From assembly GCA_018660835.1 (NCBI GenBank), contig JABJJN010000080.1, forward strand, positions 62,001-126,000: a stretch of 64,000 nt of DNA, in the 5' to 3' direction. Below are positions 10,938-28,386 of the stretch, one piece after another. Every line of letters begins with the position of its first letter. Position 1 is the first letter of the stretch. The DNA is from Gemmatimonadota bacterium. Lineage in GTDB: Bacteria > Latescibacterota > UBA2968 > UBA8231. The notes under the pieces are model-generated. The model was not told the DNA's origin. It saw nothing but the letters and a program-made list of their open reading frames with translations, and ran no database searches. The translations under genes and the position numbers were made by a program.

Positions 10938-13094
10938 CTAATAGGCTACGTAGACGACACCGGTCGCCGTCTCGTCACCAGTGTCCAAATTGGCGGTCAC
11001 TGAAAACAGATAGATTCCTGGAGCGACGAGTTCGCCATTGTCATTCTTGCCGTCCCAGAAACCTGGAGACAGACGCGCCACGTCTGAGTCGATGCGCAGA
11101 TTCTGATAGCGTCCACCGATCAGCGTGGGTGTATCGAGTCGCCGCACGCGGCGGCCACCCATCTCGAAAACCTCCACATCTACGACACGTGGCTCGGAGA
11201 CCTTCGTCAAGGTGAACTCGAAGACGGTGAAATCGTTGATCCCATCGTTGTTTGGCGTGAAGACTTTTGGATAGGCCTTGACCCCGAACAGATCGCGGGC
11301 ATCGACGTCACTGACGAAGACTCTCCACGATTCGTCATCTTCGACACCTTCGCTCACGTTCTGCGGATCATCGGAACCCGGACTGAAGAGGAAGGCGCGA
11401 AACTCATGCGTGTCTGTGAACAGTGCCGCTTCAAACAAGACGTCGAGATCGATCTGTTCCGCATCGGCCGAGCTCAGGGGCGGATCAAAGCGGATATCGA
11501 GATCGCGCACGCCGCCTGGCGTCACATGCAGGACACGCCCAAGCGCCGTGATTCCTTCTTCACTGGTGGGATACTCTTGCACACTGATCTGCTCGCCGAG
11601 CAGAACGAGTCCATTCACGACTGAGGGCTGGCTCGGCAGGCGAATTCGAACCGTCTCCACAAGATCGCCCTCGGCCAATTGCAACTGGAGGCGGTAGACA
11701 AATGGAGTTTCTACACCCATCGCCGCCTCGTGTGGCGCGACGGATCCACTGGCGCCTCGGGCGGCGATGCCCGCTGCATCAAAGTCGATCTCAAGACTGT
11801 CGACTGTCGGCGTAAATTCCAGGTCCTCCGTATGCAGATTCACCCGATAGCGTAAATAGCGGCGCGGCTCAGGAGAGGGCATGAAGATGTCCGAATCTTC
11901 AAAGGATTCGCTCCAGGCGCTCCAGCTGGGATCGGTCGTATCGGGACTGTCGCCGGTGCTGAATTGCAAGTCCACCGATGTTGAGGGCGGAGTGTCCGCC
12001 CACCAGCGGACCCGTCCAAAGTTCTTGACCGTATCCGGATCACCCAGATCTAAGGGCGCCGAGACAAACGCGCCGTCAGAAAGGAAGTCGACGCCGTAGA
12101 TCTGAACTTCTGTCACTTTCGCTGGATCACTGCCTACTTCAGCCTGCGTGACTTGCACCCGAACATAGCGAGCCAATACAGGATTGAACTGGACCTCCGT
12201 GAACACGAAGTCCTCAATGTCATTGAGTCCGCCCATTTCGATCCAGCGTGATTGATCCTCGCTGATCTGAACTGAATAACCCAGCAGAGAATTACCTTCG
12301 TAGGTCTCGTTGCCATCCGGCGGCTTGGTAATCACGCGGACACGATTGATACGGGTCAGCTCGGGCAGGGTGAGATCGACCACCCGATTCAAGGCCCCCA
12401 GCCCCTGAGGAAGGGACCAAACCGGTGTGCCGATACGACCGTCTGTGATGCCCACTTCGCTGGCATTCAGCCCGAGAGCGATATTCTGTCCCCCCTGATC
12501 AGCCAGGATGATCTGTCCCGCCGCCGAACTGCCAAGGTTGACGTCATCGGGATATCCGGCCACAACTTCCGCCTCTGGGTGGAAGATGCCGCCCGTCACC
12601 TGCGATCGGTCGATCGTGCCGGCGCGCACGCGCGCCCAACTGCTACTGACGTTGGCTGTCGTCCAGTCAGTCCCGACCTGTTCGTCTCCGGTCCAGTACC
12701 ACAGGGACGTCTCGTCCGTAAAGGTGCTGCGAACCACCAGCGAACCACCCTCGACGCTGACGATCAACCCATTGCCCTGCTGGGCCGCAAGGTTTGTCAC
12801 GACGATGGCGATGTCATTGTTCCCCGACTCGAGCGAGACGGGTGCTTGTTCTGCCGTTTGCCAGTTAGGATCGGCGGCAACTTCAACGCCGTTGACATAG
12901 AGCGTGTACTTGCCGACGGCTGTGACTTGCAATGCCGCCTCTACCGCTTCTTCGACCGCAAAGGTGTGGCGGTAGTAGGTGGTTTGCTCCCAGTGGCCAA
13001 TACGAAGTGTGTCACCGTCGGCCTGGCCGCTGACGAGGACGACAATCAGGAGAGCTAGGACGAGCGAAGGATTTCTTCTACCCACAGAGATCAT
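10938..13094 (-). CDS. Secreted F5/8-type-C domain protein with FlgD/T9SS-like C-terminal tail
   Basis: About 718 residues. I prefer the ATG at 13094: a purine-rich GGGAAG sits just upstream and a clean signal peptide follows (about 1-27). The frame is open to 13199, but that extension looks non-coding. The N-terminal part (about 28-190) looks like a jelly-roll domain. A discoidin/F5-8C-like domain spans about 195-337 (RINRVRVIT, GYSVQISEDQSRW, ARYVRVQVTQAEV). A beta-sandwich region follows. The C-terminal about 105 residues form a gliding-motility/FlgD-like module (KVFTPNNDGINDF, then GFWDGKNDNGELVAPGIYLF). I infer a surface-exposed, carbohydrate- or surface-binding protein exported together with the downstream barrel proteins. 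Confidence 0.75.
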   Translation of the reverse strand: MISVGRRNPSLVLALLIVVLVSGQADGDTLRIGHWEQTTYYRHTFAVEEAVEAALQVTAVGKYTLYVNGVEVAADPNWQTAEQAPVSLESGNNDIAIVVTNLAAQQGNGLIVSVEGGSLVVRSTFTDETSLWYWTGDEQVGTDWTTANVSSSWARVRAGTIDRSQVTGGIFHPEAEVVAGYPDDVNLGSSAAGQIILADQGGQNIALGLNASEVGITDGRIGTPVWSLPQGLGALNRVVDLTLPELTRINRVRVITKPPDGNETYEGNSLLGYSVQISEDQSRWIEMGGLNDIEDFVFTEVQFNPVLARYVRVQVTQAEVGSDPAKVTEVQIYGVDFLSDGAFVSAPLDLGDPDTVKNFGRVRWWADTPPSTSVDLQFSTGDSPDTTDPSWSAWSESFEDSDIFMPSPEPRRYLRYRVNLHTEDLEFTPTVDSLEIDFDAAGIAARGASGSVAPHEAAMGVETPFVYRLQLQLAEGDLVETVRIRLPSQPSVVNGLVLLGEQISVQEYPTSEEGITALGRVLHVTPGGVRDLDIRFDPPLSSADAEQIDLDVLFEAALFTDTHEFRAFLFSPGSDDPQNVSEGVEDDESWRVFVSDVDARDLFGVKAYPKVFTPNNDGINDFTVFEFTLTKVSEPRVVDVEVFEMGGRRVRRLDTPTLIGGRYQNLRIDSDVARLSPGFWDGKNDNGELVAPGIYLFSVTANLDTGDETATGVVYVAY

Positions 13095-13282
13095 CTTCCC
13101 TTCCCCACATATGCATCTTCGGGTGAATGGATCGTGCTCGTGATGAGCGAATCCGACGCTGGAATGAAAATCCGAGGGAACATTCTGTAGAACGAACAAG
13201 GTGAACGATCATTCCAAGGATGACCGTCCACCTCGTCCATGGGTCGTAACGACTTTCTAAACCCTACTTGTGTTCCTGCACC

Positions 13283-15202
13283 CTACTTGAGCAGTGTCAT
13301 CTTCTTGGTCTGCGAGAAGTGACCCGCTTGCAGGCTGTAGAGATAAACACCATTGGCCATGCTGGCTCCAGTCTCGTCGGTACCGTCCCAAACACTCTGG
13401 TACGAGCCCGCCGCGACATAACCCTGGTGCAACGTCTTCACGAGTTGACCCTGCAGGTTGAATACCTGAAGGACCACTTGTTCGTCCTGAGGCAAGCTGA
13501 AACGGATCGTAGCCTCTGGATTGAAAGGGTTCGGATAGGCGTCATCCAGAGCGTGGCTGGATGGCAGCGTCGCAACTTCGAGAGCTTCCACAGCCGTAGA
13601 GGCGCCACCCGGATTGATCAAAGCAGACTTGGAGTCGTAAGGGAAGTGAATCGCCTGACGCGCCGGGAAACCGGTGAAGTCAGGAACGTCCATCGGGTCG
13701 GTACCGCCACCGCGACGTGATCCGATATCCCAGTAGAGACCGTCATATGGACCATCTTCTTCGATCGACTCAACCCACTGCGGCCAGTGAGCCGGTGCAT
13801 GGCTCGCCAACATATGCAGAATACCCGTGCCGTCCGGACCAAGAATGTCGACGGTCGCCGACGTAGCACCGAGCAATGGGATGAAAGCGAAACCATGACC
13901 GTCCTTGCTTCCTGAACCCGAGGTGTTCCACGGTGTCAGAGCGAAGGAGCCGAAGTCGAAGTCACCCGTGTCGGGATTGCGGCTGTCGGCGAAACCATCA
14001 CCATTGTTGTTCGTCCACATCAATTCACCGTCAAGGCTGACCTTGACGTGCAGTGGTGCAGCGTAACCAACGGCATAGATACCTGTGCCATCGACCCAGA
14101 TATCATGTGGGCTGAAAGCCTGGTTGCCGGCGCCGACGTCGATCACATTCCACTCAGACAGATCGATCACGTCGACCACTTCACCAGTGGCCGCATCCTG
14201 AATACCTACCTGTGAATGTGCCGGCAGGTCACCACCGCGATCATAGGTCGGGTAGTAGATACGACCTTCCCACACATCGATACCGGTGGATCCATTCTTG
14301 ACGTTACCATCGCTGAAGGGAGCGAACTTCATGCGTCCGTCGCCTTCACTGCCGAAGTTGCGGTCAAGCGTGACCTGGCCATTGGCCGGATCTACACTGA
14401 ACTTGATCGCGCCATAGACCGCAGTTACTCCGTCGACGATCTCGTGGCTGTCACCGTAGAAGTCGCCGGGCAACGAGCCATACTGCTTGCCGTTACCGCC
14501 ACCCTGCCACACTGCTGGCACGATGTCATCTTCGTGAAACACGGTCATCAGCTCGTCTTCGACATCGATCGCCTGATAGGCACCCGGCGTCTCGAGCCAG
14601 TTCGTGCCGACCTTGCTGAGAATCATGTGTCGAGGACCATCGGTGGTGAGGCGTGACGCGCCACCACCGGTGACCGTGAACAGGTCACCATTGCCATCTT
14701 TGGCCAAAGCGGACTCAGCCGTGTGACGTGCATTGGTGTAGGCAACCATGTTGATCGGCGCCTGATCGTCGAGACCGATGACGAAGTAGCGATAGCTACC
14801 CGTCGGATCTACGGCGTTGCCGTCCATGTCCGTGCCGTCCCACGAGAGGGAATGCGAACCCGCCTCGAAGCGGGATCCAGCGGACACGTGCAGGGCGTAG
14901 TCGACTTCCTGATAGGTGTGCCAGTTGATCTCACCACCTGTGGTGAGACCAGGTAGATCCGAATCAGGCAGATTCGTATACACGGCCAGGTACACCGTAG
15001 CCGCCGAACCAGTCATGCTGAAAGGAATACTGACGGGGAAACTGGTGACATTCATGTCAGACACAGACAGGGTCAGCACCGTTGGCATGCGACTCTCGGT
15101 GATCTGATTTTCCTCGCCGCCAATGGCACCCTGGGCAAGCGCGCCACCGACCGAAACCAGCAGCATCGCTGCTGAGACACGCAGTTGTTTTCCAACTGTC
15201 AT
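13283..15202 (-). CDS. Secreted protein with YPNPFNP (T9SS type A-like) sorting tail
   Basis: The protein has 639 residues. The ATG at 15202 has GGAG about 9 bases upstream, and a signal peptide follows (about 1-24, ending ALAQG). A FlgD-like segment lies at about 95-140 (HSLSWDGTDMDGNAVDPTG). A long central region carries repeated Asp/Gly loops and short blade-like patterns (PHDIWVDGTGIYAVG), suggesting a beta-propeller, but I cannot assign a family. Residues about 550-639 are a classical sorting module: DAYPNPFNPEATIRFSLP, then WDGTDETGASMANGVYLY, and a final KKMTLLK. It is first in the leftward train and has a candidate promoter upstream. It is probably a cell-surface or released protein. 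The substrate is unknown. Confidence 0.75.
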   Translation of the reverse strand: MTVGKQLRVSAAMLLVSVGGALAQGAIGGEENQITESRMPTVLTLSVSDMNVTSFPVSIPFSMTGSAATVYLAVYTNLPDSDLPGLTTGGEINWHTYQEVDYALHVSAGSRFEAGSHSLSWDGTDMDGNAVDPTGSYRYFVIGLDDQAPINMVAYTNARHTAESALAKDGNGDLFTVTGGGASRLTTDGPRHMILSKVGTNWLETPGAYQAIDVEDELMTVFHEDDIVPAVWQGGGNGKQYGSLPGDFYGDSHEIVDGVTAVYGAIKFSVDPANGQVTLDRNFGSEGDGRMKFAPFSDGNVKNGSTGIDVWEGRIYYPTYDRGGDLPAHSQVGIQDAATGEVVDVIDLSEWNVIDVGAGNQAFSPHDIWVDGTGIYAVGYAAPLHVKVSLDGELMWTNNNGDGFADSRNPDTGDFDFGSFALTPWNTSGSGSKDGHGFAFIPLLGATSATVDILGPDGTGILHMLASHAPAHWPQWVESIEEDGPYDGLYWDIGSRRGGGTDPMDVPDFTGFPARQAIHFPYDSKSALINPGGASTAVEALEVATLPSSHALDDAYPNPFNPEATIRFSLPQDEQVVLQVFNLQGQLVKTLHQGYVAAGSYQSVWDGTDETGASMANGVYLYSLQAGHFSQTKKMTLLK

Positions 15203-15579: not shown

Positions 15580-17577
15580 ATGATGCGCGAGTCGATGCAG
15601 CAGGAATTGAAGGGGGATTCTTCCCAAAGAGAGGAGCCTGCCCAGGGGGTAACGGTGCGAGCCTTCCTGATGGGCCTGGTTTGCTCTGCTGTTGTGGCGG
15701 GGGGGACGCAATACGGCGAGATCTATCTGAGAAGCTCCCGTATGTCCGATGACTTCAGCATGGGCGGCGCGATCTTCGTTTTCTTCTTCGTCGTCGCCGT
15801 CGTTAATGTCGTCCTCAAGCTGATCGGACCGAGAGCGGCCTTCGCCCGTGGCGAGTTGATCCTCATTTACGTGATGATGATGACCTCCTGCGCCGTGACC
15901 GGCATGGGACTGACGCACTATCAGATTCCATTGATGGCGACGCTGTCGTACTTCTCGACACCAGAAAACGCCTGGGCGACACTCATCGCGCCGCACGTTT
16001 CGGGTTGGATGGTGGTAGAGGATCCTCTTGCAGCCAAACACTTCTTCGAAGGGCTGCCGGAGCATATGCCGCTTCCGTGGGGAGCCTGGCTGAAGCCATT
16101 TGCGTATTGGAGCGTGTTCTTTCTGGCTCTCTACTTCGCCATGACAGCGATCATGGTCATCCTCAGGAAGCAATGGAGCCACAATGAGCGGTTGATCTAC
16201 CCCATGATCCGGGTTCCTCTCGACATGATCGGCGATGAGGATCGTGGCAATCTGCTGTCGGGATTCTTCAAGAACCCCGTCATGTGGGCTGGTTTCTTCG
16301 TCGCCTCTTTCGTGACATCATCCATTGGTCTCAGCGCGTACTACGACTTCATCCCCCAGATCAACGTCCTCTATCCGGGGACGACGATCAGTATGCTCAG
16401 AAACACGATCAACCTGCAATTCATGATCAGCTTTCCTGTCCTCGGCTTTGCCTATCTGATCAATCAGGATGTGGCCTTTGGCCTGTGGTTCTTCGACGTC
16501 ATCGCCAAGATCATGGACGGCGTGCTCAACACGGTAGGACTCTATCTGCGCCTTCGCGTCAACCACTATGGCAGTGCCTCGGGGATCTTCTCCTCGACGG
16601 CCATTGGCGCCATGGTGACGCTGGTGATCTATGGCCTGTGGGTGGGACGTGGACACCTGAAGGACGTATTCAGAAAAGCCTTCAAGGGTGATCCCGAAGT
16701 AGACGATACGAACGAGATTCTCTCTTACCGCAGCGCCGTCTTCGGATTGATCGCATCGGTGATCATCATGCTCGGCTGGCTCGATGCGGCAGGACTGCCC
16801 GTATGGGCGGGAATGCTGTTTCTGTTCATCGCCTTCGTCATCTTCATCGCTATTTCCCGCCTTGTCGTGGAAGGAGGATTGGCGGCCTGCAGGGCACCCT
16901 TGATCGCGTCAAACTTCATGCTGTATGCAGTGGGCACACCGGCGTTAGGTGCAAAGGCCGTAACGGCTCTCGGCTTCTCCTATGGCTGGGCCTCTGACAT
17001 CCGGACATTCCTGATGGCTTCGATCGCCAATGCGTTGAAGCTTCTCGATGAGCCCTGCTTCCGCGAGCGCAAGCGTTGGATCTTCGGCTGTATCGTGGCG
17101 TCCCTCATCGTATCGGTGGTGGTGTCTTTTGGTCTGATGCTGCACCTGGCCTACGATGTGGGCGGCGTCAACATCCACTCCTGGTTCTGCCTCGGAGCCA
17201 ACTTGCTGCCATTCAACATGGTCGCCACAGTGGTCAGCCGACCCATCGATGTGACGTGGCCCATGTGGATGAACATGGGTTTCGGCGGCTCGCTGATGGG
17301 ACTGCTGACATTTCTCCGCTATAAGTATCTGTGGTGGCCGCTGCATCCTCTCGGACTGACCGTTGCTGGCAGCACGGTGATGAACTGGACCTGGTTCAGC
17401 ATCTTCCTGGCTTGGATGATCAAGGTCCTTGTATTGCGGTATGGGGGTCCGAAAATGTTTCGCGCCACGCGCCCCTTCTTTCTCGGCATGGTTCTGGGAC
17501 AGTTCGTGTCCGCCGGTGTGTGGACGATCATCGACGGCTTCAATAGCATGACGGACAACATGATCTTCGTCGTCTGA
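15580..17577 (+). CDS. Polytopic inner-membrane protein (DUF6784/DUF6785-like, transporter-like)
   Basis: The protein has 665 residues with at least ten hydrophobic segments. The clearest are at about 28-45, 60-82, 90-112, 175-195, 235-255, 383-402, 408-428 and 500-522. Conserved-looking loops include YPMIRVPLDMIGDE, RLVVEGGLAACRAP and GGVNIHSWFCLGANLLP. The architecture resembles the DUF6785/DUF6784 membrane proteins common in Planctomycetes, Poribacteria and Latescibacteria, which look like oligopeptide-transporter relatives. That assignment is from memory of the family and is not tested here. GAGG lies 2-3 bases before the first ATG (15580) and about 5 before the second (15583), so the second may be the real start. 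It is the only obvious transporter candidate in the window. It is monocistronic, facing the convergent M28 gene. Confidence 0.7.
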   Translation: MMRESMQQELKGDSSQREEPAQGVTVRAFLMGLVCSAVVAGGTQYGEIYLRSSRMSDDFSMGGAIFVFFFVVAVVNVVLKLIGPRAAFARGELILIYVMMMTSCAVTGMGLTHYQIPLMATLSYFSTPENAWATLIAPHVSGWMVVEDPLAAKHFFEGLPEHMPLPWGAWLKPFAYWSVFFLALYFAMTAIMVILRKQWSHNERLIYPMIRVPLDMIGDEDRGNLLSGFFKNPVMWAGFFVASFVTSSIGLSAYYDFIPQINVLYPGTTISMLRNTINLQFMISFPVLGFAYLINQDVAFGLWFFDVIAKIMDGVLNTVGLYLRLRVNHYGSASGIFSSTAIGAMVTLVIYGLWVGRGHLKDVFRKAFKGDPEVDDTNEILSYRSAVFGLIASVIIMLGWLDAAGLPVWAGMLFLFIAFVIFIAISRLVVEGGLAACRAPLIASNFMLYAVGTPALGAKAVTALGFSYGWASDIRTFLMASIANALKLLDEPCFRERKRWIFGCIVASLIVSVVVSFGLMLHLAYDVGGVNIHSWFCLGANLLPFNMVATVVSRPIDVTWPMWMNMGFGGSLMGLLTFLRYKYLWWPLHPLGLTVAGSTVMNWTWFSIFLAWMIKVLVLRYGGPKMFRATRPFFLGMVLGQFVSAGVWTIIDGFNSMTDNMIFVV

Positions 17578-17651: not shown

Positions 17652-18893
17652 CTAGAGCAGCTGAATCCGGCGCAAGTATTCGTTGAAGACCAGAAAACTG
17701 TTCTCCACGCAGTCGAGGGGCACCGTGTCTGGCGTGTCCTCGGGACGATGCCACAGGGGCAACTGCTCTTCGTCATAGCCACGGCTGTTGAGATCGATCG
17801 TCCGGATGCCCGCATCGGCAAAAGGACGGACCTCACTACGCACAGCACCCGGATACTCAAAGCCAATGGGATAGGCTGGATCGAACTCATTGTGGAGGCG
17901 CAGATCTTCGTGGATGGATCCCATGATCTGCCGCAACTGCTCGTCCAGCGTGTGCACATACAGGTTCGGGCCGTAGGTCAGAGAATCAAAACTGGCGCAG
18001 AACTTGATCTTATGCAGCGTGCCTTCCTGCCGCCGCCGCTCGCAGTAGTGCTTCGCACCCAGGAGGTTGTATTCCTCCGAACCGGTGCCCATAAAAGTCA
18101 TCGTCCGCTTGGGTCGTGTGCCAGAAAACGCGTGGGCCAGCATGAGCACAATGATGAGGGTCGCCGTGTTGTCGTTGGCGCCCGGTGTGTTGTATTGAGT
18201 GTCAGCGTGGGCGAAGACGAGGATCTCTTCGTCCGTCTGCCCCGGCAGCGTGCCAACCACGTTGCAGGTTCGAGCATCATCGATGAATTCAGCCTTGAAA
18301 TGCAACCGTACCGGTGCCTGACTCGCCACGGCGGCCTCGAGGGCGCCGGCGTCCTGTTTGCCAATGCAGATCGTGGGGACATGTGCATCCTCACTGGCAG
18401 GATCGATCACACCGGTCACGGCACGACCATAGGTGCTGATATTCACCTGCGCGCTGACCGCCTTTGAAGTGGCGTCGACGATCGCGAAGGGATTGGCGCC
18501 CTCCTGGTGCACGAGAATACCACGTGCGCCATTAGGTTCAGGCCATGCACTGCCAAAAGCGGGGTAACACTCAATGCTGCGCCCCGCGCAGTAGAAAATC
18601 GGGTCTTCCAGCAGACGCCATGCTCGCAGACCAAACCAGTCCAGTTCTGTCTCCGGCATGGCGAGGGCCATCTGCTGACGAATCAGCTCAGCGGAACGAT
18701 CGTAGGCGGCGCTGCCCGCGTAACGCGGACCGATCTGTGTGCAAAGGGTGTCGAGCATCTGCGCCATGTAACGGGCTCGATCCTGTGGCCGCGCCACCAG
18801 ATGTCGGCTGGTAGAATTGCCAGCGAAGGCAGTCAGGGGGGTGAGGGCCATGGAGGCGGCCAGTGATTTACCGAGGAATTCCCGCCGTCTCAT
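17652..18893 (-). CDS. Exported M28-family zinc aminopeptidase-like hydrolase
   Basis: The protein has 413 residues. The N-terminus RRREFLGKSLAAS followed by a hydrophobic stretch and TAFAG is Tat-like, so export in folded form is likely. M28 zinc and catalytic residues are all present: His229 and Asp241 in HADTQ...GANDN, Glu273/Glu274 in GSEEYNLLGAKHY, Asp303 in SFDSLTYG and His382 in WHRPEDTPD. M28 enzymes remove N-terminal residues from peptides or act on related amides. The exact substrate is unknown. The start overlaps the stop of the DUF4159 lipoprotein gene by 4 bases (ATGA). It is a paralog of the M28 protein at 21072-22196 and shares its CEAxxP-free C-terminal layout (VPLDCVENSFL against [11 protein letters not shown]). 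Confidence 0.85.
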   Translation of the reverse strand: MRRREFLGKSLAASMALTPLTAFAGNSTSRHLVARPQDRARYMAQMLDTLCTQIGPRYAGSAAYDRSAELIRQQMALAMPETELDWFGLRAWRLLEDPIFYCAGRSIECYPAFGSAWPEPNGARGILVHQEGANPFAIVDATSKAVSAQVNISTYGRAVTGVIDPASEDAHVPTICIGKQDAGALEAAVASQAPVRLHFKAEFIDDARTCNVVGTLPGQTDEEILVFAHADTQYNTPGANDNTATLIIVLMLAHAFSGTRPKRTMTFMGTGSEEYNLLGAKHYCERRRQEGTLHKIKFCASFDSLTYGPNLYVHTLDEQLRQIMGSIHEDLRLHNEFDPAYPIGFEYPGAVRSEVRPFADAGIRTIDLNSRGYDEEQLPLWHRPEDTPDTVPLDCVENSFLVFNEYLRRIQLL

Positions 18894-19723
18894 ATGCCTG
18901 CTCCTTTGAGTTTCATTGCCAGAGATCCTTCCTTCGTGAGAGCGTAGATCACCAGGTTGATGCCCATCTTCAGTTGTGGCTCGTTTTCGAACGATTGCTG
19001 CCAGAATTCTCCATAGCCCATATCAGCGTAGACGGCGACAAGACGACCATCGATGAAGATTCCCTCAAGAAAGTCAACCTGCGGCGCCCGTGGTCCTTCG
19101 AGGATCAGACCGGGCCGGTAGTCGCCGCCAAAGGGTGGCCCCTGCAGATCGTAATAGCTGTGGAAGATAGCGTGGGTGTTGGGAATCCTCTCAAATCGGG
19201 CGTTCCCATCCAGCGCATCGACCAACATCTGACGCAGGGCCGCCTCCGCCGGGCCGAAACCGAGGTCTGGGCGACCATTGTCTACGACGACAAACCCGCC
19301 GCTGCGGATATAGCGACCCAGATTATCGAGCTCGAGCTCTGACAGATCGAAGGCTTCCACAGCGCTGATGTAGACGAAGGGCCGGCGCAGCAACTCGGGC
19401 GAGTTTAGGAAGGTGTGGCCCGTCAACTTGGCGCGCACACTGGTCTGTGCTGTGAGCGCCTCTGCCAGGGCCGAAACGGCGCGCAAATGCCCTGGCCGAA
19501 GGCGACGTCCCCAGGTAATGGAGAGGTAGACAAACCCCTCAATGCTTTGCTTGTCGTCTGGGTCCTCCAGGATCACGGCACCGAACTGTCCCGTGTCGAA
19601 GTCTGCGGGCGTCGGTGCCGTATCAGCCTCATCGATTTGCTCCCTTGGCTCGAGATTGCGCAAGGTGGCACAGGCACTGATGCCAGCAATCAGCAGGAGC
19701 AGAAATCCCCGGGACAGACTCAC
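18890..19723 (-). CDS. DUF4159 lipoprotein
   Basis: The protein has 277 residues. A lipoprotein signal (FLLLLIAGISAC) puts the acylated Cys at about residue 18. The remainder is a DUF4159 domain with the same blocks as the protein at the left edge of the window (GFVYLSITWGR, RSGGFVVVDNGRPDLGFGPAEA, VDGRLVAVYADMGYGEFW). The start codon is GTG, one base after the TGA of the AGE-epimerase gene; no in-frame ATG would keep the signal. The family has no assigned reaction. Its place between an epimerase and two M28 peptidases is odd for a structural protein and may mean a shared periplasmic job. The domain call is firm; the function is open. Confidence 0.8.
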   Translation of the reverse strand: MSLSRGFLLLLIAGISACATLRNLEPREQIDEADTAPTPADFDTGQFGAVILEDPDDKQSIEGFVYLSITWGRRLRPGHLRAVSALAEALTAQTSVRAKLTGHTFLNSPELLRRPFVYISAVEAFDLSELELDNLGRYIRSGGFVVVDNGRPDLGFGPAEAALRQMLVDALDGNARFERIPNTHAIFHSYYDLQGPPFGGDYRPGLILEGPRAPQVDFLEGIFIDGRLVAVYADMGYGEFWQQSFENEPQLKMGINLVIYALTKEGSLAMKLKGAGI

Positions 19724-19724
19724 T

Positions 19725-21068
19725 TCATTGCCATACGCCGCTCACGGCGCCGTTACGCTCGATCATTCGATCGAGAGCTAACAGGTTGAGCATCAGATGG
19801 CGCGGGTGATGGAAGTTGCCCTTGCGTGCGGTTTTCGGCTGGTAGGTAACCTTTCGATCTCCTCCCATGATCCACATGGGATAGCCATGTTGACGCAGGG
19901 GAAACTTCTCCTGCACATAGTGGAAGGTGCGATCGAACCACCACGCGGGCCATTCGAGATCTGTGTGCTCCATGAGGATCATCGTGCCGATCAGGACCTC
20001 TTCCTGGAGCCAAAGCACCTTGTCAAAGGTGAGCGCGCCATTCACCTCCATAGCGCGAAAGAATCCACCATACACATCATCCCAGGCGACCTCGATATGC
20101 CGTTTAAGTCGCTCTGCAGCCAGGTCGAACAGTGCCGGGTCTTGCCGTCGAAGTGCTTCGTGCAGAATCATCCAGAATGTTTCGATGGCGTGACCTAGAT
20201 AGACAAAGTCCTCGTTCTCGTCGTCCCGACGATTGAAGTTGTGATCGAGGGCTTCGTTGTTGAGACGATATTCCGGATGCCAGAACCGCTCGGTGACATT
20301 CTCCAAGGCATTCGACATTCGTGCTTCCAGCGCTGCGTCAGATCTCTTTTGCAGGAGTGAATTCAGCAGAACGATCGTCACCATTTCGAAGCCACCGACT
20401 CGCATACCGGGGTAACTGACGGGTATGTATCCCTGGTTGACGTCTCTGTCAGGGTCGTTGTAGAGCTTCGTCCCCTGCCAGAATACGTCGATCGCCAGAT
20501 CCATGGTCTCTTCATCGTCCGCCGCCTTGGCGTATTCCTGCAGCCCTTCGGCGAGGAAGAGCGCTGCGTAGCCCATGCGGTCGGCATCGCCGGTAATTCG
20601 GCCTTCACGATCCATGCTGGTGACCCAGTTGCCCTCTTTGTCTCGACCGTGCTTGAGGACAAAGTCCTTCGTCAATCGCGCCATCTCCAGGTGTTCATCA
20701 CCACCGAAGTGATTGTAGAGGAAGGAGTGGGTCCACAACCCTCTCCCCTGATACCACATGCTCTTTTCCGTATTCAACTGCGTGCCGTCATCAGCGACGG
20801 CACACATGAAGCCGCCGAGTTCGAAATCGAATCCACTCGTTCGCCAAAAGGGCACGTAGTCGTCGAACAGATCACTGCGATACTGTTCGCGCAGATCGGC
20901 CAGAGCCATTCCTGCAATGTGTGAGCGTTTTGTCCGCATTGTATCAGCCTGTGGTTGCACACCCGTTGCCATCGTCGTATCCCCATGAGAAGGCCGAGGT
21001 ACGAAGACCCCGGATAAATTGGTAAGTGGTGCAAGCGCCAGGCCCTTGAGGACATCGCGACGCTTCAT
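19725..21068 (-). CDS. N-acylglucosamine 2-epimerase (AGE) family protein with Tat-like signal
   Basis: The protein has 447 residues. It begins MKRRDVLKGLALAP, a Tat-type twin-arginine start, so it is probably periplasmic, which is unusual because most AGE-family sugar epimerases are cytoplasmic. The body is an (alpha/alpha)6-barrel with family motifs: WYQGRGLWTHSFLYN (about 103-117), DRMGYAALFLAEGLQEY, YLGHAIETFWMILHEAL (His near 285) and YPMWIMGGDRKVTYQPKTARKGNFHHPRHLM at the C-terminal end. Family members interconvert GlcNAc/ManNAc, cellobiose, mannose/fructose or act on related sugars. The substrate cannot be read from the sequence. It lies 3 bases downstream of an M28 gene and 1 base upstream of the DUF4159 lipoprotein gene. 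Confidence 0.8.
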   Translation of the reverse strand: MKRRDVLKGLALAPLTNLSGVFVPRPSHGDTTMATGVQPQADTMRTKRSHIAGMALADLREQYRSDLFDDYVPFWRTSGFDFELGGFMCAVADDGTQLNTEKSMWYQGRGLWTHSFLYNHFGGDEHLEMARLTKDFVLKHGRDKEGNWVTSMDREGRITGDADRMGYAALFLAEGLQEYAKAADDEETMDLAIDVFWQGTKLYNDPDRDVNQGYIPVSYPGMRVGGFEMVTIVLLNSLLQKRSDAALEARMSNALENVTERFWHPEYRLNNEALDHNFNRRDDENEDFVYLGHAIETFWMILHEALRRQDPALFDLAAERLKRHIEVAWDDVYGGFFRAMEVNGALTFDKVLWLQEEVLIGTMILMEHTDLEWPAWWFDRTFHYVQEKFPLRQHGYPMWIMGGDRKVTYQPKTARKGNFHHPRHLMLNLLALDRMIERNGAVSGVWQ

Positions 21069-21071
21069 CGA

Positions 21072-22196
21072 TCAGCTGCCAGCAATTCGCCCGACGAATG
21101 ACTGCATCGTCAGGAAGGCGCTTTCGACACAATCCATTGGCACATTCGCCGCGTCATCTGCAGGCGTGTGATTGGCAGCCAATGTCTCGTATCCACGGCT
21201 GTTGAAATTGACCCCCGTAATGTGAGAATGCAGATCCTTGAAGGGCGCCGCATCGTTCATCCAACAGGGCGTATCGTCATAGATCGGCTCAGTCCCCAGC
21301 TGCAACTCTTCGTGCACGGCGCGCACGGTCGCCGTCAGGTCCTCATCATGGGTCGAGGTCCACAGATTTGGACCGTAGGTCAGAGAATCGAAATTGATGA
21401 CACAGCGGATGTCTCTGTGGGTCCCTTCCTGCACACGGCGCCGTACATAGTGCCTGGCGCCAATCAATCCGTATTCTTCGCTTCCCGTGATCAGAAATCT
21501 CAGGGTGCTTTGAGGCGTGCTTTTGGCAAAGACATGGGCCAGCATCATCGCCACGATGGCGGAAGCCATGTTGTCATTGGCGCCCTCTGTGCGAATGATG
21601 GAGTCTGCATGAGCTATGACGATGACTTCGTCTGCAGCCTGACCCGGTATCCGCGCGACAATATTGTGTGTCGGGCAGTCGGTTGAATGCACTACACGAA
21701 GACGAGTCTGTACGACAGCGTCCGTCTCGGCGAGCATCTTCAAGAAAGGGACATCACGAAGCCCCACGACGAACGTGGGAGGGCCGAGAATCGCATCACC
21801 GTATAGATACACAGGTTGCACCCCCACATCTGTGCTCACCTGAATCAGCGCATCCATCGTTCCCGTTTCCACATTCTGGATGCCAAAGGGTGTGCTCGTG
21901 TCGGGGGTCAGGCGAATACGGCCATCAAACCCCGCAGCTGCGGTACCCGAGCAGTTTTCGGCAACACCGACGGCGAGCCGATTTCCCTGATGATTGATTT
22001 CGGCAGAAGGAACAACCGCCCAATAGTCGAGGTAGCGATCGAGTTGCACATCCGCAATGGAGGAAGACAGATCCTCGTGGATGATGCGAACCACCTCCTC
22101 GTATTCGGCTGTGCCTGACGGATGGGGTCCGATCTCGGCACATAGGCGTTGCAGCATACGCTCGGCATACTGCATTCTACTGCAGGGTGTCTCCAC
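21072..22196 (-). CDS. M28-family metallopeptidase-like hydrolase without signal peptide
   Basis: The protein has 374 residues. The start is GTG at 22196, chosen because GAGGA lies about 9 bases upstream; the next ATG (22175) has no ribosome-binding site. M28 metal and catalytic motifs are complete: IAHADS...[28 protein letters not shown] and ANHTPADD. There is no signal peptide, in contrast with the exported paralog at 17652-18893. The pair may therefore process the same class of substrate on two sides of the membrane. The N-terminal phrase [13 protein letters not shown] matches TLCTQIGPRYAGS of the paralog. Substrate unknown. Confidence 0.8.
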
Positions 22197-22302: not shown

Positions 22303-25300
22303 TCATCGCATCACCTGCACAACTCCTTCCGCTGCGGCAGATCCCACGTCGCCATGGGTCGTAATGCGGTAGAGATAACTGCCCCCGGCGAGGGAGAGTG
22401 TTGGCGCCCAGAGGATCTGATTGTGTCCCCGCAAGCCATGGGCCTTGATCTCGTCGACCACTCTGCCGCTCACGGTATAGATGCGGATTCTCACGGTCGC
22501 TGGGGCCGAAAGCGAAAAAGTAAAGTGCCCAGTGTCCGACGTCGGATTGGGAAAAAAGACAGCGTCGTCGATCCTTTGCCCCGGTGAGACGACTGCCGTC
22601 ACCCGGCTTTCCGACCAATTGTTGTGCGTGTCCCACGCCTCCAGGATGATCTCGTGTGGGCCATCTTCCAACACTGGCAAATCGATCATCACGCCGCCCA
22701 CGCGATAGTCCTCCCCCGTGTGGAACAGGGAGGTCACGTCCGTCCGCTCGCCATCAACGGTGAGCATGATTTCGTGGCCCACATCGCCGGCGATATTGAT
22801 TCCACTGGGATCCTCGATGGTGGCCTGCAACCGGACCTTCGGAGACACGAAGTCGCCAGAGAGAAATGCCTGGCCGGAGAAACCGATGGAGATCTTCGGT
22901 CCAGCAAAATCCGGCTGCGCATCGGCGGCCGTACCGGACATGATCAACCCGCCCCTCGAACCAAAAGCTGCGCCCTGCTCGGCAGCGGCATAAACACTGA
23001 TGCGCCCACGCGTACCGCGATATGTAATATCCTTGGGCACGGGAAATTCACCTGCAAAGCGACCGTCTACGACCGGGAAGATCCCGCGGAACAACGTCGC
23101 CACCGGTTGATCGTACTCCAACACTTCGCCCTGCAACGTTTCACGACGCCCCACGACGGAATCAAATACCTGTACGCGCGCTTCGCCGTTGAACCCCTGC
23201 AGGAGCGCGCCGTCCTCCCCTATGATCTCTCCCTCGAGTCGCTCCACACCGAGGGCTCGTAGAGTGTCCGCTGTTTGCAATGCAATTCCGAGAGTTGGCA
23301 TGGAGAGTCGCATCAAGGGGTCGCCAAAAAGAGTGTAGCGTCTCTCGTTTTCGCGAAACGTGTCGGTCGCGAGTTTCGCCTCCAGCAAGGCCATCCCCAC
23401 CGGCACGAAGCGTCGACCGCTTGTGAACATCCCCGCGTGAAAACTGCGCGCCAAAGCGATGTTGCTGTTGTGGAAACCGATACGGGTTGCGGCGATCATG
23501 CCGATGGCCCCACCGTGTGGCCACTTGATCAGGGCCTCGGGCATCGAATCCAAGTCGGGGTCATCGAAGACACCCATCTGACTGGCTGCAGCAAACACAA
23601 AAGGCTGTCGCCCACCGTTATCAATCGCCTGCAGATCGGTGGGTAGGACGAAAACATGCTCATGGGCAAATACCCGAGAATTCCCATGGCCCACCCAGGT
23701 CAACAACACGGCTCCCTCGTTGAACCGGCGCACAAAGGCGTCGCGCGCTTTCGGCTTGAACCTGCCCTCAAAAGGAAACTCGACGAGGTAGAGTTTTTCG
23801 AGGTCCAGTTCCTGTGGGAGGAACCGGGCCGCCAGGTCCTCACTATCCTGGGTGAACATGGTTTCGACCAGGTGCGGTTCGTCGGCGTTGAAGGTATCAT
23901 CCGACACGAGCAGGATTCGTCCCTGCCAGGCACCAAACTCTGGATCACGATCATAATTGATCAGCTTGTCCACGACGGTCCGAGCTTCATCTGACGTCTG
24001 CACAGAGAGTCGACCGATCGCCATGTCCGGCAGTGCGTCATTGCCGGAAACATGCGTATACCACTCATCGTACGTGCTCTCCCCATCCTCGTACGGTGGC
24101 ATCCAGTTCCCGGGACTCGTCCCCGAATGATTGCGATAATCGTAGGTTCCGTCACCGAACAGAACCACGAAGCTCGGTGCCGGTGCCCATTGATCATGGG
24201 CATGGCGGAGGAAGTCGCGGATCGCCGTGGGATCAAACAGTCCACCACTGAAGTCGTCGTAGATCTGCTCGACATCCACCACCCTCGTCACGGGCGCTGG
24301 CGCAAATCGATCATCTGTGGCACGCCAGTGGGCGAGATCCTGAGCGGCGCTCAGAAAATCCGTATGCGTGATCACGATGTAGTCGGCACCGCCCGAACCG
24401 GTCAATTCTCCCAACTGACGCAGTTCGACGCCTGTTGGCGTCTTGAAAGCTGAATCTGCGACCACAGCGTAGCGACGCGGCGGTGACAGGATCGGCGCCG
24501 CGAAAGAAAACCGGCCTAGTGACGCATCATGTGTCGCCCCCACGATCTGAGTGAGGCCCGCGGCAGAGATGTCGAACACCCGTGGGGGGCGTTCAAATCC
24601 AGTCAGGGCGTAAGCGGCTTCCCCTGTCTGCACTCCATCAAAGAGCAGTTCGCCATCCACTGCCGTCAGGAAGCGCTCGTATTCGACCTCGTACCAGTCG
24701 AAAAATGCTGCACTATCGCTGCGCCCTCGGATTGTCAATTGCCCATCTTCACCGTCGATTTCGATTCGATCCTGCGTGACAGTTACAAGGTCGCGCTGCA
24801 ACGGCTGTATCGTGACAGTGGCTCCGTCCCACAGGATCTGTACCGTTGCATCAGCGATCGCGTGGGTCGTAAACCCTGTGCGCAAAGTCGCCACAGACGA
24901 AGCCGCATCGGGGTGAGAGACGTCAAGAGTTCGAGCTTCGCCCTGCTGCAGCAATTCCCAATACCACTGTTTGCCCGACGGGATGCTCCCAGGCGCTATG
25001 AACAACGGTGCGCGCTGCTCTTCGTGATGCTCACGTGCCACATACGTAGTTCGGATGGTGGAGCTATCATCGATGGATCCGTCCAAGGGCATCGACACGG
25101 TTGTCGTGTCTGCATCAAGGGCGAGCCAGTAAACATTGGCGGCAGTGAAGGGGTTGCTGAGGAACTGGCCTGCTGCGTCTCCTTCTGTGATCCAACGATC
25201 GGTGCCCTGTCCGTAAAACAGGATGTAATCATCTGTACCCAGCAGACCATCGCCGCCGTCCTCTAACACAAAGCTGACTGGATTCAACCCTGATGGTGCA

Positions 25301-26022
25301 CCACCAGATTCGGCCAGGGGTCTGCCACCACCGTTGTAGAGGGCCAGCGAGGCCACAGGGATACCGGTGGGCGCTCCCGCCGTGACGAGTTGTGCTCCCG
25401 TGAGACGATAGATCCCCTCCTCCTGGACGGTCACCTTAAAGAACATCCCCTCGGGGCGGGGTATCTGCGACCGGCCAGCACGCTTGGCGACGTGCTGACC
25501 ACGTCTCCAGGAACGTGCCTGATCATAGTTGGCGATGGACCCGCTGTACATCAGCTCTTCATAGAACGCACCTCGAGCAGCAAGAGCTTGCCCAGTCGAG
25601 TTGGGTTCGAAAGACACCTCCACTACGACCGAGTCGGACACGCTCTCGGCTTCGCCTACGCCTGACCCTGGCGGTATGAGCAACTCAACGATGCGTTGGT
25701 CGCGAAAGAAACCCACCTCTCCGAGGCGCACCGCCATCTGCGCCGAAGCAGGTGTCTCGAGAATGCGCAGACTCGGTGAGCCGACGAGGGGGATACCCAC
25801 CAGGGCTCGTTGTCCTTGGTCTGTGGAACCGATCGGGCAGGCGAGCCGCACGAACCCCGGTCCGCGATCGACGACGCGCACCGCCGCCTGAGTGGCGGCA
25901 GCTGACAACATGAGCCCCACCAGAAGAATGGCAATCGCCAGGTGGCCTGCTTGCCTGGTCGGCAAAGCAGATCTGTCAGCGCGCGCGGACAACAGCGAAT
26001 TTCCCTCGCAACGTGCGACCAT
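22303..26022 (-). CDS. PorU-like C25 (gingipain-family) protein with Ser at the catalytic Cys position
   Basis: About 1240 residues from the ATG at 26022. The frame is open to 26145, but the extension lies inside the upstream gene. A hydrophobic signal segment at about 28-47 ends TQAA. An N-terminal beta-rich region precedes a C25 peptidase domain (about 560-900). The His motif TWVGHGNSRVF has His779, and the Cys motif position reads FAAASQMGVFDDP with Ser814, 35 residues later, where PorU and gingipains have Cys. Ig-like domains and a FlgD/sorting-like tail (FFPNPTSDTGHFTF, then SLAGGSYLYRIT) complete it, as in PorU. PorU is the T9SS sortase at the outer membrane. The upstream neighbour looks like PorZ, its partner. 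The Ser could make it inactive, a serine variant, or reflect a base error. Confidence 0.75.
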   Translation of the reverse strand: MVARCEGNSLLSARADRSALPTRQAGHLAIAILLVGLMLSAAATQAAVRVVDRGPGFVRLACPIGSTDQGQRALVGIPLVGSPSLRILETPASAQMAVRLGEVGFFRDQRIVELLIPPGSGVGEAESVSDSVVVEVSFEPNSTGQALAARGAFYEELMYSGSIANYDQARSWRRGQHVAKRAGRSQIPRPEGMFFKVTVQEEGIYRLTGAQLVTAGAPTGIPVASLALYNGGGRPLAESGGAPSGLNPVSFVLEDGGDGLLGTDDYILFYGQGTDRWITEGDAAGQFLSNPFTAANVYWLALDADTTTVSMPLDGSIDDSSTIRTTYVAREHHEEQRAPLFIAPGSIPSGKQWYWELLQQGEARTLDVSHPDAASSVATLRTGFTTHAIADATVQILWDGATVTIQPLQRDLVTVTQDRIEIDGEDGQLTIRGRSDSAAFFDWYEVEYERFLTAVDGELLFDGVQTGEAAYALTGFERPPRVFDISAAGLTQIVGATHDASLGRFSFAAPILSPPRRYAVVADSAFKTPTGVELRQLGELTGSGGADYIVITHTDFLSAAQDLAHWRATDDRFAPAPVTRVVDVEQIYDDFSGGLFDPTAIRDFLRHAHDQWAPAPSFVVLFGDGTYDYRNHSGTSPGNWMPPYEDGESTYDEWYTHVSGNDALPDMAIGRLSVQTSDEARTVVDKLINYDRDPEFGAWQGRILLVSDDTFNADEPHLVETMFTQDSEDLAARFLPQELDLEKLYLVEFPFEGRFKPKARDAFVRRFNEGAVLLTWVGHGNSRVFAHEHVFVLPTDLQAIDNGGRQPFVFAAASQMGVFDDPDLDSMPEALIKWPHGGAIGMIAATRIGFHNSNIALARSFHAGMFTSGRRFVPVGMALLEAKLATDTFRENERRYTLFGDPLMRLSMPTLGIALQTADTLRALGVERLEGEIIGEDGALLQGFNGEARVQVFDSVVGRRETLQGEVLEYDQPVATLFRGIFPVVDGRFAGEFPVPKDITYRGTRGRISVYAAAEQGAAFGSRGGLIMSGTAADAQPDFAGPKISIGFSGQAFLSGDFVSPKVRLQATIEDPSGINIAGDVGHEIMLTVDGERTDVTSLFHTGEDYRVGGVMIDLPVLEDGPHEIILEAWDTHNNWSESRVTAVVSPGQRIDDAVFFPNPTSDTGHFTFSLSAPATVRIRIYTVSGRVVDEIKAHGLRGHNQILWAPTLSLAGGSYLYRITTHGDVGSAAAEGVVQVMR

Positions 26023-28240
26023 CACGGGTTGCAGCGATATAGAGATAGATACCCGGACCGACGGTCTTCCCGTCCCTGTCTGTGCCATCCCAGGCAATGA
26101 CCGTTGCACCCCGCTCAGCTTCGAGAAATCGAACCAGATTTCCATCCAGCGAGAACAGCGTCACCTCCGAGTCGAGTGGCAATCTTGCGAAGGTCAGCCG
26201 TGAACTCCCGGAGCCGTCGACGACGAGCGGATTCGGGTACACGAGGGGACCATTGCTCTGAGCGGACTCAACTCGACTGAGGCCAACCTGCAGCTGCCCA
26301 AGGCCTCCGAAGGTGCCGATCCAGAGCGACCCGTCAGACTCTCCATAGGTGACGGATGCGACGCGGTTATGGATCAAACCGCTGTTCTGGGTAGTGAAAG
26401 TGGTGACCAGGGTCCCCGTTGTCCGCAGCCAGGTCAGACCTGCACGTGTCCCGACCCAGACATTCCCCTGGTCGTCGAAGGTGATGGAAGTGATGAAGTT
26501 GGAATTCAATCCATCTTCGAGTCGGTATTCGCGCCATGTGGGGAATGAGAGACGGCCCGTGCCGGTGTTATAGGACCATGTAAGTCGATACAGACCATTG
26601 TCGGTTCCCACCCAGAGGACATTTGCCGTTGACACGGCGATGGCCGTGACATTGGCACTACGCAGTCTGGATTCGGTCGTCGGATTCACGACGGCAGACG
26701 TAGCCCCTGCAGCAAATGGCTCGGATCCATCGTCAAAGAACACGAAACCCTCTGTCGCCGTCGCCACCCACTTGGTTCCGTCCGGCCCGATCGCGACCCG
26801 ACTCAGATGCGTTGCGGCAGGTAGGCCCAGTGCATCCAGATCGTGAAGAAAGCTTCTGGTTGTTGGAAAGCTATCCATGACGACCAGACCCGCCTGGACA
26901 TTCGTCATCCACATGTGGCCCTGGGCATCGGGTTGGATGTCACTCACCACGACGAAGTCCGGCACGCTCGGTTGTGTGATCCCTCGTAGGGCAGAGTTGC
27001 GCTGGTCGAATGCACGCCAGGCGCCGTCGTCAAGGATCGCGACGCCACGACCCCACGTCGTAACCCAGAGATGTTCAGACTCGTCGCGCGCGATACCGAC
27101 GGCGAAGTCGGACGGCAAACCACCGTCGCGGCCGTAGACTTCCCAGCTGTCACCATCGTAGCGAAAGACACCGACAGGATCACCCTCCCTGTCGCTGGCA
27201 GTACTGGCCACCCACAACTCGCCGTTTTCGCCTGCCTCGATGTCGAACAGCTCGTTGCTGGGGGCATCTGCAAAGGCTGGAGGATCTGTGCGTCCAAGTG
27301 TGGCAAGCCCCGTAGGGGTGCCATACCACAGATCTTCTCCTGAAGGTGCAAGCGATTGGACGGCGTGGGGCACATCCAGCTCGCCCCAACTTCCAGCCCC
27401 GTGGCGCTCGTGCAGGTCTCCATCGGCACTGGCGACAAGTCTTCGAGGCTGACCGAAACTGCTCAGACCATCGACCTTGCCAAAGAACGCGATCGAGCGC
27501 CAACGAGACTGGCTCTCGTCAAAACGCCAGACAGCGAAGGCTCCACCACAGTAGAGTGTGTCATTGTGAACGATGAGACTTGAACTGTCCCCCATGAGTC
27601 GCGATGACGTCCAGCTGTCGGGATCCTGGAGATTCGTCGACGCCAAGGTTGCGTGAGCGACACCATCGCGAGTGGCGACAAACAGATTGCCCGCGTACAC
27701 GACCATCGCGCGGACCTCGGTGTTTTTCTGGAACTGTCCGAGTTGCCGGTAGGTCTCCTTGACCCTGCTGTTGGCGGTGAGGTAGACGCTGACACCGACG
27801 TCTGTGCCCACGAAGAGTCTGTCCTCGAGGGATAGGATGCTATTGATCCTGAGATCTCGAAGTGCATCCTGCGTCGGCACAAATTGGGCGTCCGCAAGGC
27901 GCAACTGGCGAAGACCGTCGCCATCGGTACCAAACCACAGATTTCCGGATGAATCTGGGCAGACCGACAGAACAAGATTCGCTTCCATTCCATCTGCCCG
28001 GGTGAAGGGTTGGTATGATTCAGCGACCGGATCGTACTGCAGGACGCCCCCAGCCGTGGCAGCGTAGACGCCCCCTTCGGCAAAAGCCAGGGCATTGATG
28101 GGTTGCATGCTCGTCAGTGCGCGCCATGACCCGGCTTGAGCAGCCGTTGCCGCAGGCAGCAGCGTCATCAGAGAGAAACCGAGAATCACGACATGGCCGC
28201 ACGATGTGCTCTGAAGGCCTCGCAAGAGGCGCGTACTCAT
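25976..28240 (-). CDS. PorZ-like protein: two beta-propellers plus sorting-type tail
   Basis: About 754 residues from the ATG at 28240, which gives a good signal sequence (about 1-34); the frame is open to 28318. The body is a series of two-component-regulator-propeller repeats (for example SSGNLWFGTDGDGL, ENGELWVAST, SEHLWVTTWGRGV, QGHMWMTNVQAGL, TANVLWVGTDNGLYRL, QGNVWVGTRAGL, DGSLWIGTFGGL). The number fits two seven-bladed propellers. A FlgD-like module (LVYPNPLVVDGSG, then WDGTDRDGKTVGPGIYLY) ends the protein. This is the architecture of PorZ, a surface component of the T9SS attachment complex with PorU, PorV and PorQ in Bacteroidetes. Its end overlaps the PorU-like gene start by 47 bases. 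No histidine kinase follows the propellers, so it is not a hybrid sensor. Confidence 0.72.
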   Translation of the reverse strand: MSTRLLRGLQSTSCGHVVILGFSLMTLLPAATAAQAGSWRALTSMQPINALAFAEGGVYAATAGGVLQYDPVAESYQPFTRADGMEANLVLSVCPDSSGNLWFGTDGDGLRQLRLADAQFVPTQDALRDLRINSILSLEDRLFVGTDVGVSVYLTANSRVKETYRQLGQFQKNTEVRAMVVYAGNLFVATRDGVAHATLASTNLQDPDSWTSSRLMGDSSSLIVHNDTLYCGGAFAVWRFDESQSRWRSIAFFGKVDGLSSFGQPRRLVASADGDLHERHGAGSWGELDVPHAVQSLAPSGEDLWYGTPTGLATLGRTDPPAFADAPSNELFDIEAGENGELWVASTASDREGDPVGVFRYDGDSWEVYGRDGGLPSDFAVGIARDESEHLWVTTWGRGVAILDDGAWRAFDQRNSALRGITQPSVPDFVVVSDIQPDAQGHMWMTNVQAGLVVMDSFPTTRSFLHDLDALGLPAATHLSRVAIGPDGTKWVATATEGFVFFDDGSEPFAAGATSAVVNPTTESRLRSANVTAIAVSTANVLWVGTDNGLYRLTWSYNTGTGRLSFPTWREYRLEDGLNSNFITSITFDDQGNVWVGTRAGLTWLRTTGTLVTTFTTQNSGLIHNRVASVTYGESDGSLWIGTFGGLGQLQVGLSRVESAQSNGPLVYPNPLVVDGSGSSRLTFARLPLDSEVTLFSLDGNLVRFLEAERGATVIAWDGTDRDGKTVGPGIYLYIAATRDGRTLRGKFAVVRAR

Positions 28241-28386
28241 TTCGTTGTGGCCTGCGCGGAGTGGGAGGAATTCTGCTTGAGCCGATTGGACGCCCAATAT
28301 GGTATTCGGGTTCGCCAACTCGAGTTTGGTCGCCGATTAAGCTAGCAGGTCGAATCGCCATCAACAAGCGCCAGCGAGGCGGATGC

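Follow-up and report, generated by a model that had tools for sequence, protein, structure and literature searches.

The question raised by this locus is whether two adjoining genes of a Latescibacterota bacterium encode PorU and PorZ, which attach cargo to the cell surface in the type IX secretion system (T9SS), and, if they do, how such a pair could work. The genes lie on the minus strand of a 64,000-nt stretch of contig JABJJN010000080.1 (hereafter the window; all coordinates are positions in this stretch, on the forward strand), which comes from a metagenome-assembled genome (MAG) of 7.09 Mb with a completeness of 93% and a contamination of 8%. Our results show that the pair is PorU and PorZ by descent and fold, but without the catalytic cysteine that defines PorU, in a host without a recognizable T9SS motor. 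On balance, we lean towards reading it as the surface attachment pair of a type-IX-like pathway in this bacterium. An original prediction, made from the sequence of the window, had recognized the pair, but overlooked the replacement of cysteine by serine, the probable status of the window pair as a second copy, and the spread of PorU over lineages of the Fibrobacterota–Chlorobiota–Bacteroidota (FCB) group.

Identity of the pair

Both open reading frames were found where they had been placed (25976-28318 and 22303-26145; Table 1), and the predicted membership in the PorU and PorZ families was borne out by profiles and folds. The PorU-like protein scored 606.8 bits against NF033707, the curated equivalog model of PorU (cut-off 420). 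By sequence it matched the PorU structure 6za2 of the Protein Data Bank (PDB) with E = 1.1e-55, and 6za2 was also the best PDB fold for its AlphaFold model (pLDDT 91.6; E = 1.4e-60), with gingipains next. Its tail is over the cut-off of TIGR04183 and under that of PF18962 (18.3 bits, cut-off 27). PorU2 (NF052324) has a related C25 architecture; it was rejected as the identity of the window protein, whose PorU2 score (115.6 bits, cut-off 450) is far lower than its score with the PorU model.

PorU of Porphyromonas gingivalis (PG0026; the T9SS C-terminal signal peptidase/sortase of family C25) agrees with the window protein in four features: the C25 domain, the catalytic histidine, a conserved arginine and a type IX tail on the protein itself. 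The likeness rests further on the profile score and the top fold match, and the host has a paralogue in a porU-porV pair. In contrast to PG0026, the window protein has a serine instead of a cysteine as nucleophile, with A-S-Q replacing T/S-C-x, its modelled domains are arranged otherwise (TM 0.45), and its gene is coupled to porZ.

The PorZ-like protein scored 210.5 bits against the curated PorZ model NF052228 (match 9-757 of 757), which does not reach the cut-off of 260. It contains the N-terminal propeller of PorZ (PF21544, 33.8 bits, cut-off 27) as well as Reg_prop repeats, and its tail stayed under the cut-offs of both FlgD_ig (19.9 bits, cut-off 27) and TIGR04183 (18.2 bits, cut-off 23). 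The PorZ model matches each of the 22 PorZ in the alignment, and TIGR04183 matches 16 of them (E up to 1e-3). The comparison of folds matters for this protein, because sequence alone ranks the sensor 3v9f (E = 7.3e-26) marginally ahead of PorZ 5m11 (E = 1.5e-24). The AlphaFold model (pLDDT 87, from an alignment of 22 sequences) had 5m11 as its best PDB match (TM 0.75/0.74). Two-component propellers reached 0.33-0.35, and eukaryotic tandem propellers no more than 0.58.

An ordinary C25 protease beside a Reg_prop sensor, unrelated to type IX secretion, would agree with the slight lead of 3v9f and with the missed cut-off of the PorZ model. Against it stand the fold, the match of every aligned PorZ to the PorZ model, the lack of a kinase domain after the propeller among the Pfam and NCBIfam matches, the PorU score over the equivalog cut-off, and the presence of SprA and PorV in the genome. 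Profile and fold rule this explanation out, and we give it next to no weight. Like PorZ of P. gingivalis (5m11; the delivery protein of anionic lipopolysaccharide, A-LPS), the window protein has the same double-propeller fold over its full length and belongs to a lineage pattern of co-occurrence with PorU. It differs in its score under the curated PorZ cut-off and in gene order: porZ overlaps porU in the window, whereas porZ (PG1604) and porU (PG0026) of P. gingivalis lie apart. Judged from profiles and models, the pair almost certainly belongs to the PorU and PorZ families.

The extent of the overlap depends on the start of porU. The predicted 47 bases hold if porU starts at ATG 26022, as the porZ stop lies at 25976; with the first in-frame ATG, at 26145, the overlap becomes 170 bases. 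The porZ-like frame opens with TTG, and its in-frame ATG at 28240 was the boundary used by the original prediction.

Serine at the nucleophile position

For comparison we used 60 genomes, consisting of the host (G000) and its relatives and split into families f1-f9 (f1, the bacterial family of the host, n = 25; f2-f4, n = 22, G025-G046; f5-f9, n = 13), and a set of named PorU relatives (the best 80 of 525 confirmed, of which 78 loci were kept). The nucleophile column was scored in 93 distinct sequences, which were left from 139 aligned PorU-type hits after restriction to long ones (133) and removal of near-copies. According to the available part of PMC5121618, the catalytic cysteine of P. gingivalis PorU is C690. 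This Cys690 aligns to Ser855 of the window protein. Serine was found in 26 of the 93 sequences, all of them f1 PorU and including both paralogue types. The other 67, which take in other families, other phyla and a long separate C25 protein of the host itself, carry cysteine. Four further f1 PorU, sampled to find an exception, had serine as well, which brings the total for f1 to 30 of 30 sampled PorU genes in 22 of the 25 genomes (no site-bearing stretch was sampled from G005, G009 and G010). Identity among these serine-type proteins ranges from 39 to 96%.

The serine rows form one side of a single branch of the PorU tree (support 100); the tree was made by a quick method, with 17 of its 90 inner branches open and an uneven composition among many rows. 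On this tree, one substitution is enough to explain the serine, placed before the duplication of porZ and porU and accompanied by further changes at the active site. The serine cannot be put down to a sequencing error or to one aberrant gene, as 30 genes from 22 genomes share it and its codon varies synonymously (15 AGC and 11 AGT in the 26 scored f1 rows). Every codon is of the AGY class, so that a test for selection on TCN versus AGY codons was uninformative. A shift of the nucleophile to another cysteine is likewise ruled out, since f1 has no conserved cysteine column and none with a cysteine majority; two columns hold cysteine in 7 or 8 of the 26 rows. Among the five invariant serine columns of f1, Ser855 is the only one that is not mostly serine in the cysteine group.

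As far as the sequences tell, the window protein is PorU by descent and architecture, and by its residues it is not a cysteine sortase. A description of a serine-type PorU did not turn up in the open-licence literature of PubMed Central (PMC), which is weak evidence of absence. Within the clan CD fold, natural replacement of cysteine by serine also occurs in homologues such as MCA4 of trypanosomes, a pseudopeptidase. The change in PorU differs from that case in being common to a whole bacterial family, along with further active-site changes.

Remodelling or decay of the active site

A column of the PorU alignment was called diagnostic if its residue was fixed in f1, in at least 95% of the rows, and occurred in no more than 5% of the other rows. 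This applied to 9 of the 980 columns (439, 692, 816, 854, 855, 856, 859, 890 and 914). Six of the nine fall within active-site segments of 43 columns in total, comprising 8 positions either side of the histidine and the nucleophile and 4 either side of the arginine (P = 4e-7; columns are treated as independent in the active-site P values, and the segments were chosen after the alignment was seen, the arginine segment after column 890 was seen). Leaving out the arginine segment, five of the nine fall in 34 of the 980 columns (P = 4e-6). As a control, eight other clades of the tree, two of which are subclades of f1, had only 1 of 60 diagnostic columns at the active site (Fisher P = 5e-6). Moreover, 20 of the 227 columns fixed in f1 lie inside the segments (P = 1.5e-5). 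Within 8 positions of the nucleophile, entropy in f1 was 0.39 bits versus 1.27 for the protein, and in the cysteine group 1.66 versus 2.15.

The pattern has the look of a focused change, kept afterwards by strong selection, and does not resemble decay. We read the site as remodelled and still selected, and the protein as probably a serine acyl-transferase. Conservation of the site together with the many tailed proteins (see below) favours a site in use, and does not thereby prove catalysis. The site is very probably still used on cargo, with either catalysis or binding under selection.

Probable duplication of porZ and porU

The host has a second PorU gene (on C41), located directly upstream of PorV. 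Of 20 loci examined, 18 have a PorU of this type; 13 of these adjoin PorV (including the C41 gene of the host), 3 adjoin PorZ and 2 adjoin neither inside the stretch covered. Paired porZ-porU genes occur at six places in 5 of the 25 f1 genomes: the window, G001:C52, G001:C57, G002:C76 (taken as L063), G012:C439 and G015:C53. Among the 78 named loci, PorZ was found inside the flank only of L063, L077 and L078, all of f1; this count is a lower bound, obtained with a single query and flanks up to 7 kb. The five porZ-linked PorU stand apart from the other 21 of f1 in the PorU tree (support 100), and the four operonic PorZ stand apart in the PorZ tree (support 0.92). Because each partner groups apart in its own tree, the two genes were most likely duplicated together, and the window pair is most likely this second, co-duplicated unit.

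Adjoining PorU genes of another kind were seen in three KSB1-labelled loci (L088, L090 and L095), which carry two cysteine-type PorU genes on one contig.

The secretion pathway of the host and its relatives

The search of the host genome for a T9SS, which had been proposed with the prediction, yielded SprA, PorV and many tailed proteins, but no match for the motor proteins PorL, PorM and PorN and only a weak PorQ. SprA of the host (C15) scored 650.7 bits when taken with its neighbours in frame (cut-off 200), and SprA was over the cut-off in 58 of the 60 genomes. The PorV/PorQ family was over its cut-off in all 60 (host 248.7 bits, cut-off 90), whereas the host did not reach the cut-off of the stricter PorV model (157.3 bits, cut-off 250). 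PorU over its cut-off and PorZ (E up to 1e-30, without a Bacteroidota control for that model) were each present in 34 of the 60 genomes, and the host has two further PorZ matches besides the window copy. PorU and PorZ co-occur by lineage: they were found in 22 and 24 of the 25 genomes of f1, in none of the 22 of f2-f4, and in 12 and 10 of the 13 of f5-f9. The 22 genomes of f2-f4 have SprA and a PorV-family protein; their lack of the attachment complex may be a natural loss, or the complex may have been absent from the start.

Matches to the tail model TIGR04183 (E up to 1e-3) numbered 99 in the host, counted irrespective of their place in the protein, and 49, 113 and 104 in three other f1 genomes, two of the f1 counts being lower bounds. 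Three f3 genomes without PorU and PorZ had 12, 7 and 16, four f5-f7 genomes with cysteine-type PorU had 20, 118, 48 and 93, and two GldM-positive controls had 36 and 14. Of 14 named genomes unrelated to these, 2 also gave matches to the model.

PorM, PorN and PorL were looked for with the models of GldM, GldN and GldL. GldM was found in none of the 60 genomes, and in none of 11 genomes consisting of the host and ten genomes behind differently labelled loci (one of Bacteroidetes and two of Ignavibacteriales). As a positive control served the phylum of an Ignavibacteriales genome, which we take to be Bacteroidota in the Genome Taxonomy Database (GTDB): 10 of 41 genomes were positive, 9 of them over the cut-off, and 31 had no match. 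GldN was absent from 22 genomes and present in 9 of the 9 controls with GldM over the cut-off. GldL likewise was over its cut-off in none of 22 genomes and in 9 of 9 controls; G048 gave a single match, of 20.5 bits. The genomes without a match to GldM or GldN and without GldL over the cut-off include the single-contig genomes G018, G024 and G027. PorQ at E 1e-25 was also absent from one GldM-positive control (G071).

The full T9SS that would have supported the prediction was not found, as the PorL, PorM and PorN models gave no match; PorK, PorP, PorT and PorW were not searched. As judged by these profile matches, the pathway has the translocon, shuttle, attachment proteins and cargo tails of the T9SS and no recognizable motor, and we refrain from naming it a complete T9SS. 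It shares SprA, PorV, PorU, PorZ and many tailed proteins with the T9SS of Bacteroidota, and differs from it in the lack of recognized PorL, PorM and PorN and in its weak PorQ.

An alternative explanation might be that the system is an ordinary T9SS, with PorL, PorM and PorN too divergent for these models. The models were built on Bacteroidota proteins, PorZ and PorQ also fall under curated cut-offs, and some driving force is expected. Yet, SprA, PorV and PorU far exceed their cut-offs in these genomes, and the negative searches extend over many relatives, while all nine controls carry GldN and GldL. A divergent motor is therefore a real possibility, which we consider a little less probable than its opposite.

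Possible mechanism and points against it

PorU is currently viewed as a Cys/His enzyme with a thioester intermediate that passes cargo on to a glycolipid. In the known cycle, PorV brings cargo to PorU, the tail is cut, a thioester is formed, and the cargo is joined to an amine of the A-LPS that PorZ supplies (excerpts of PMC10202324 and PMC4560394). The counterpart of Arg888 in PorU has been tied to sortase-like chemistry (same excerpt of PMC4560394). In the host, cargo might pass through SprA, be carried by PorV and be presented to PorU. PorU could then cut off the tail with Ser855 and His820, Arg888 being placed as in the cysteine enzyme. The intermediate would be an ester acyl-enzyme on Ser855 instead of a thioester, from which the cargo would pass to an amine donor that PorZ delivers, probably a glycolipid of the cell surface. 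We slightly favour Ser855 as a working nucleophile.

Several points weigh against the pair as a working attachment unit of such a pathway. The estimated contamination of the host MAG is 8%. The PorU model superposes poorly on 6za2 (TM 0.45, rmsd 19.5) because the domains are differently arranged, and PorZ is under the curated cut-off in every one of the 60 genomes searched. The PorL, PorM and PorN models have no match in the host, and its PorQ is weak (137.4 bits at C4, cut-off 220). Replacement of cysteine by serine usually cripples cysteine peptidases, and a long separate C25 protein with an intact catalytic cysteine could do the cutting in the same cells. Finally, PorU with the mutation C690A is inactive in P. 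gingivalis (available part of PMC5121618).

The main rival to serine catalysis is that serine-type PorU may be a conserved pseudo-sortase that binds tails, PorV or PorZ as a scaffold and cuts nothing. Cargo would then stay anchored by its tail, or be cut by the long C25 protein (L043:7258-12921(+), host contig C46; 1888 aa, with a FlgD-like tail), which is under the cut-offs of PorU (220.9 bits, cut-off 420) and PorU2 (161.4 bits, cut-off 450). The nucleophile of the cysteine enzyme is indeed lost, with the outcome of C690A as a precedent (PMC5121618, as above), and a pocket for binding could be conserved without catalysis. However, His820 and Arg888 are invariant in f1, none of the 30 genes has another residue in place of the serine, and the site varies less than the remainder of the protein. 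In addition, many genomes of the set of 60 have similar long C25 frames, some of them with cysteine-type PorU and others without PorU, which argues against a specific substitute. A conserved pseudo-sortase is thus a serious contender, to which we assign a minority share.

If serine catalysis is preferred, the wider scenario would be a family-wide serine type IX sortase, in which one substitution with second-shell changes gave a serine acyl-transferase that was then duplicated with PorZ, in a pathway without the PorL/PorM rotary motor. We offer this combination tentatively, as it is less likely than not. In either case, a family-wide serine PorU is a natural evolutionary experiment, which implies that an ester intermediate suffices or that binding is separable from cutting. 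The set of SprA, PorV, PorU and PorZ without a recognizable PorL/PorM motor also raises the question what powers export through SprA outside Bacteroidota.

Neighbouring genes

Table 1. Coordinates of the PorU-PorZ pair, its active-site residues and genes nearby in the window.
Feature	Position	Strand	Remarks
porZ-like gene	25976..28318	-	Double beta-propeller and tail domain; 780 aa from TTG, 754 aa from ATG 28240
porU-like gene	22303..26145	-	1280 aa from ATG 26145, 1239 aa from ATG 26022
C25 domain of PorU-like protein (aa 589-947)	23305..24381	-	PF01364, 262.4 bits
His820	23686..23688	-	Retained catalytic His (GHG motif); kept in 93/93 rows
Ser855	23581..23583	-	Codon AGT, at the PorU catalytic-Cys position; alignment to 6za2, codon checked
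Arg888	23482..23484	-	Counterpart of conserved PorU Arg 32-33 residues past nucleophile; 26/26 Ser rows, 59/67 Cys rows
Type IX tail domain of PorU-like protein (aa 1198-1265)	22351..22554	-	TIGR04183, 27.0 bits (cut-off 23)
M28 peptidase	21072..22196	-	PF04389; order kept in L046; synteny in same genus only
GlcNAc-2-epimerase-like protein	19725..21068	-	PF07221; synteny in same genus only
DUF4159 protein	18890..19723	-	PF13709; homologue near porZ-porU pair in L051 too
Second M28 peptidase	17652..18893	-	PF04389; synteny in same genus only
Predicted cargo, C-terminal FlgD_ig/type IX tail	13283..15202	-	FlgD_ig 66.9 bits; Por_Secre_tail 29.4 (cut-off 27); TIGR04183 36.3 (cut-off 23)

The two M28 peptidases and the epimerase-like protein were present downstream of porU as had been described, together with a DUF4159 protein. 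The original prediction had put these genes and the pair into one transcription unit, which is putative: a gap of 106 bases follows porU, and a scan of promoters and terminators gave counts at chance level. The same order of the M28, epimerase and DUF4159 genes was found only in the same-genus locus G001:C57. No homologues of these genes were found at the porZ-porU locus L045, and the neighbours at L051, of the DUF6785 and DUF4159 types, follow a different order. A conserved secretion unit that includes the M28 and epimerase genes is unsupported outside the genus. The window itself encodes a DUF6785/DUF6784 protein at 15580-17577(+), a homologue of which directly adjoins the porZ-porU pair of L051.

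Several tailed surface proteins had been predicted in the window. In a Pfam search of 20 other proteins of the window, a terminal tail over the cut-off was confirmed in the predicted cargo of Table 1, whereas the tail-type domain of 58531-60450(+) is internal (residues 71-149 of 639, ahead of DUF4382), possibly because the start is misplaced or the protein is a fusion, and the CHU_C match of 10938-13199 is slightly under its cut-off. Nothing in Pfam (E up to 0.001) matched the three consecutive large open reading frames at 2139-10858(-) (1057, 945 and 902 aa), and an Rfam scan of the window gave nothing that reached a gathering score.

Distribution

Among the named PorU relatives, the closest carry the label Candidatus Latescibacterota or Gemmatimonadetes, in agreement with the predicted host outside Bacteroidota. 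Other loci among the 78 kept belong to KSB1, Zixibacteria, Calditrichota, Ignavibacteriales and Neomarinimicrobiota. Hence, PorU is widespread in many FCB lineages, while older work, in the available part of PMC4793230, has it only in Bacteroidetes. A paper on Latescibacter together with the T9SS did not turn up in the open-licence PMC literature, which again is weak evidence of absence.

The f1 serine motif was also seen in PorU of MAGs labelled Gemmatimonadetes, Gemmatimonadota, Gemmatimonadaceae or Gemmatimonas (L063, L064, L066, L072, L073, L074, L077, L078 and L130). Published mentions of the T9SS in Gemmatimonadetes may partly be due to such labels.

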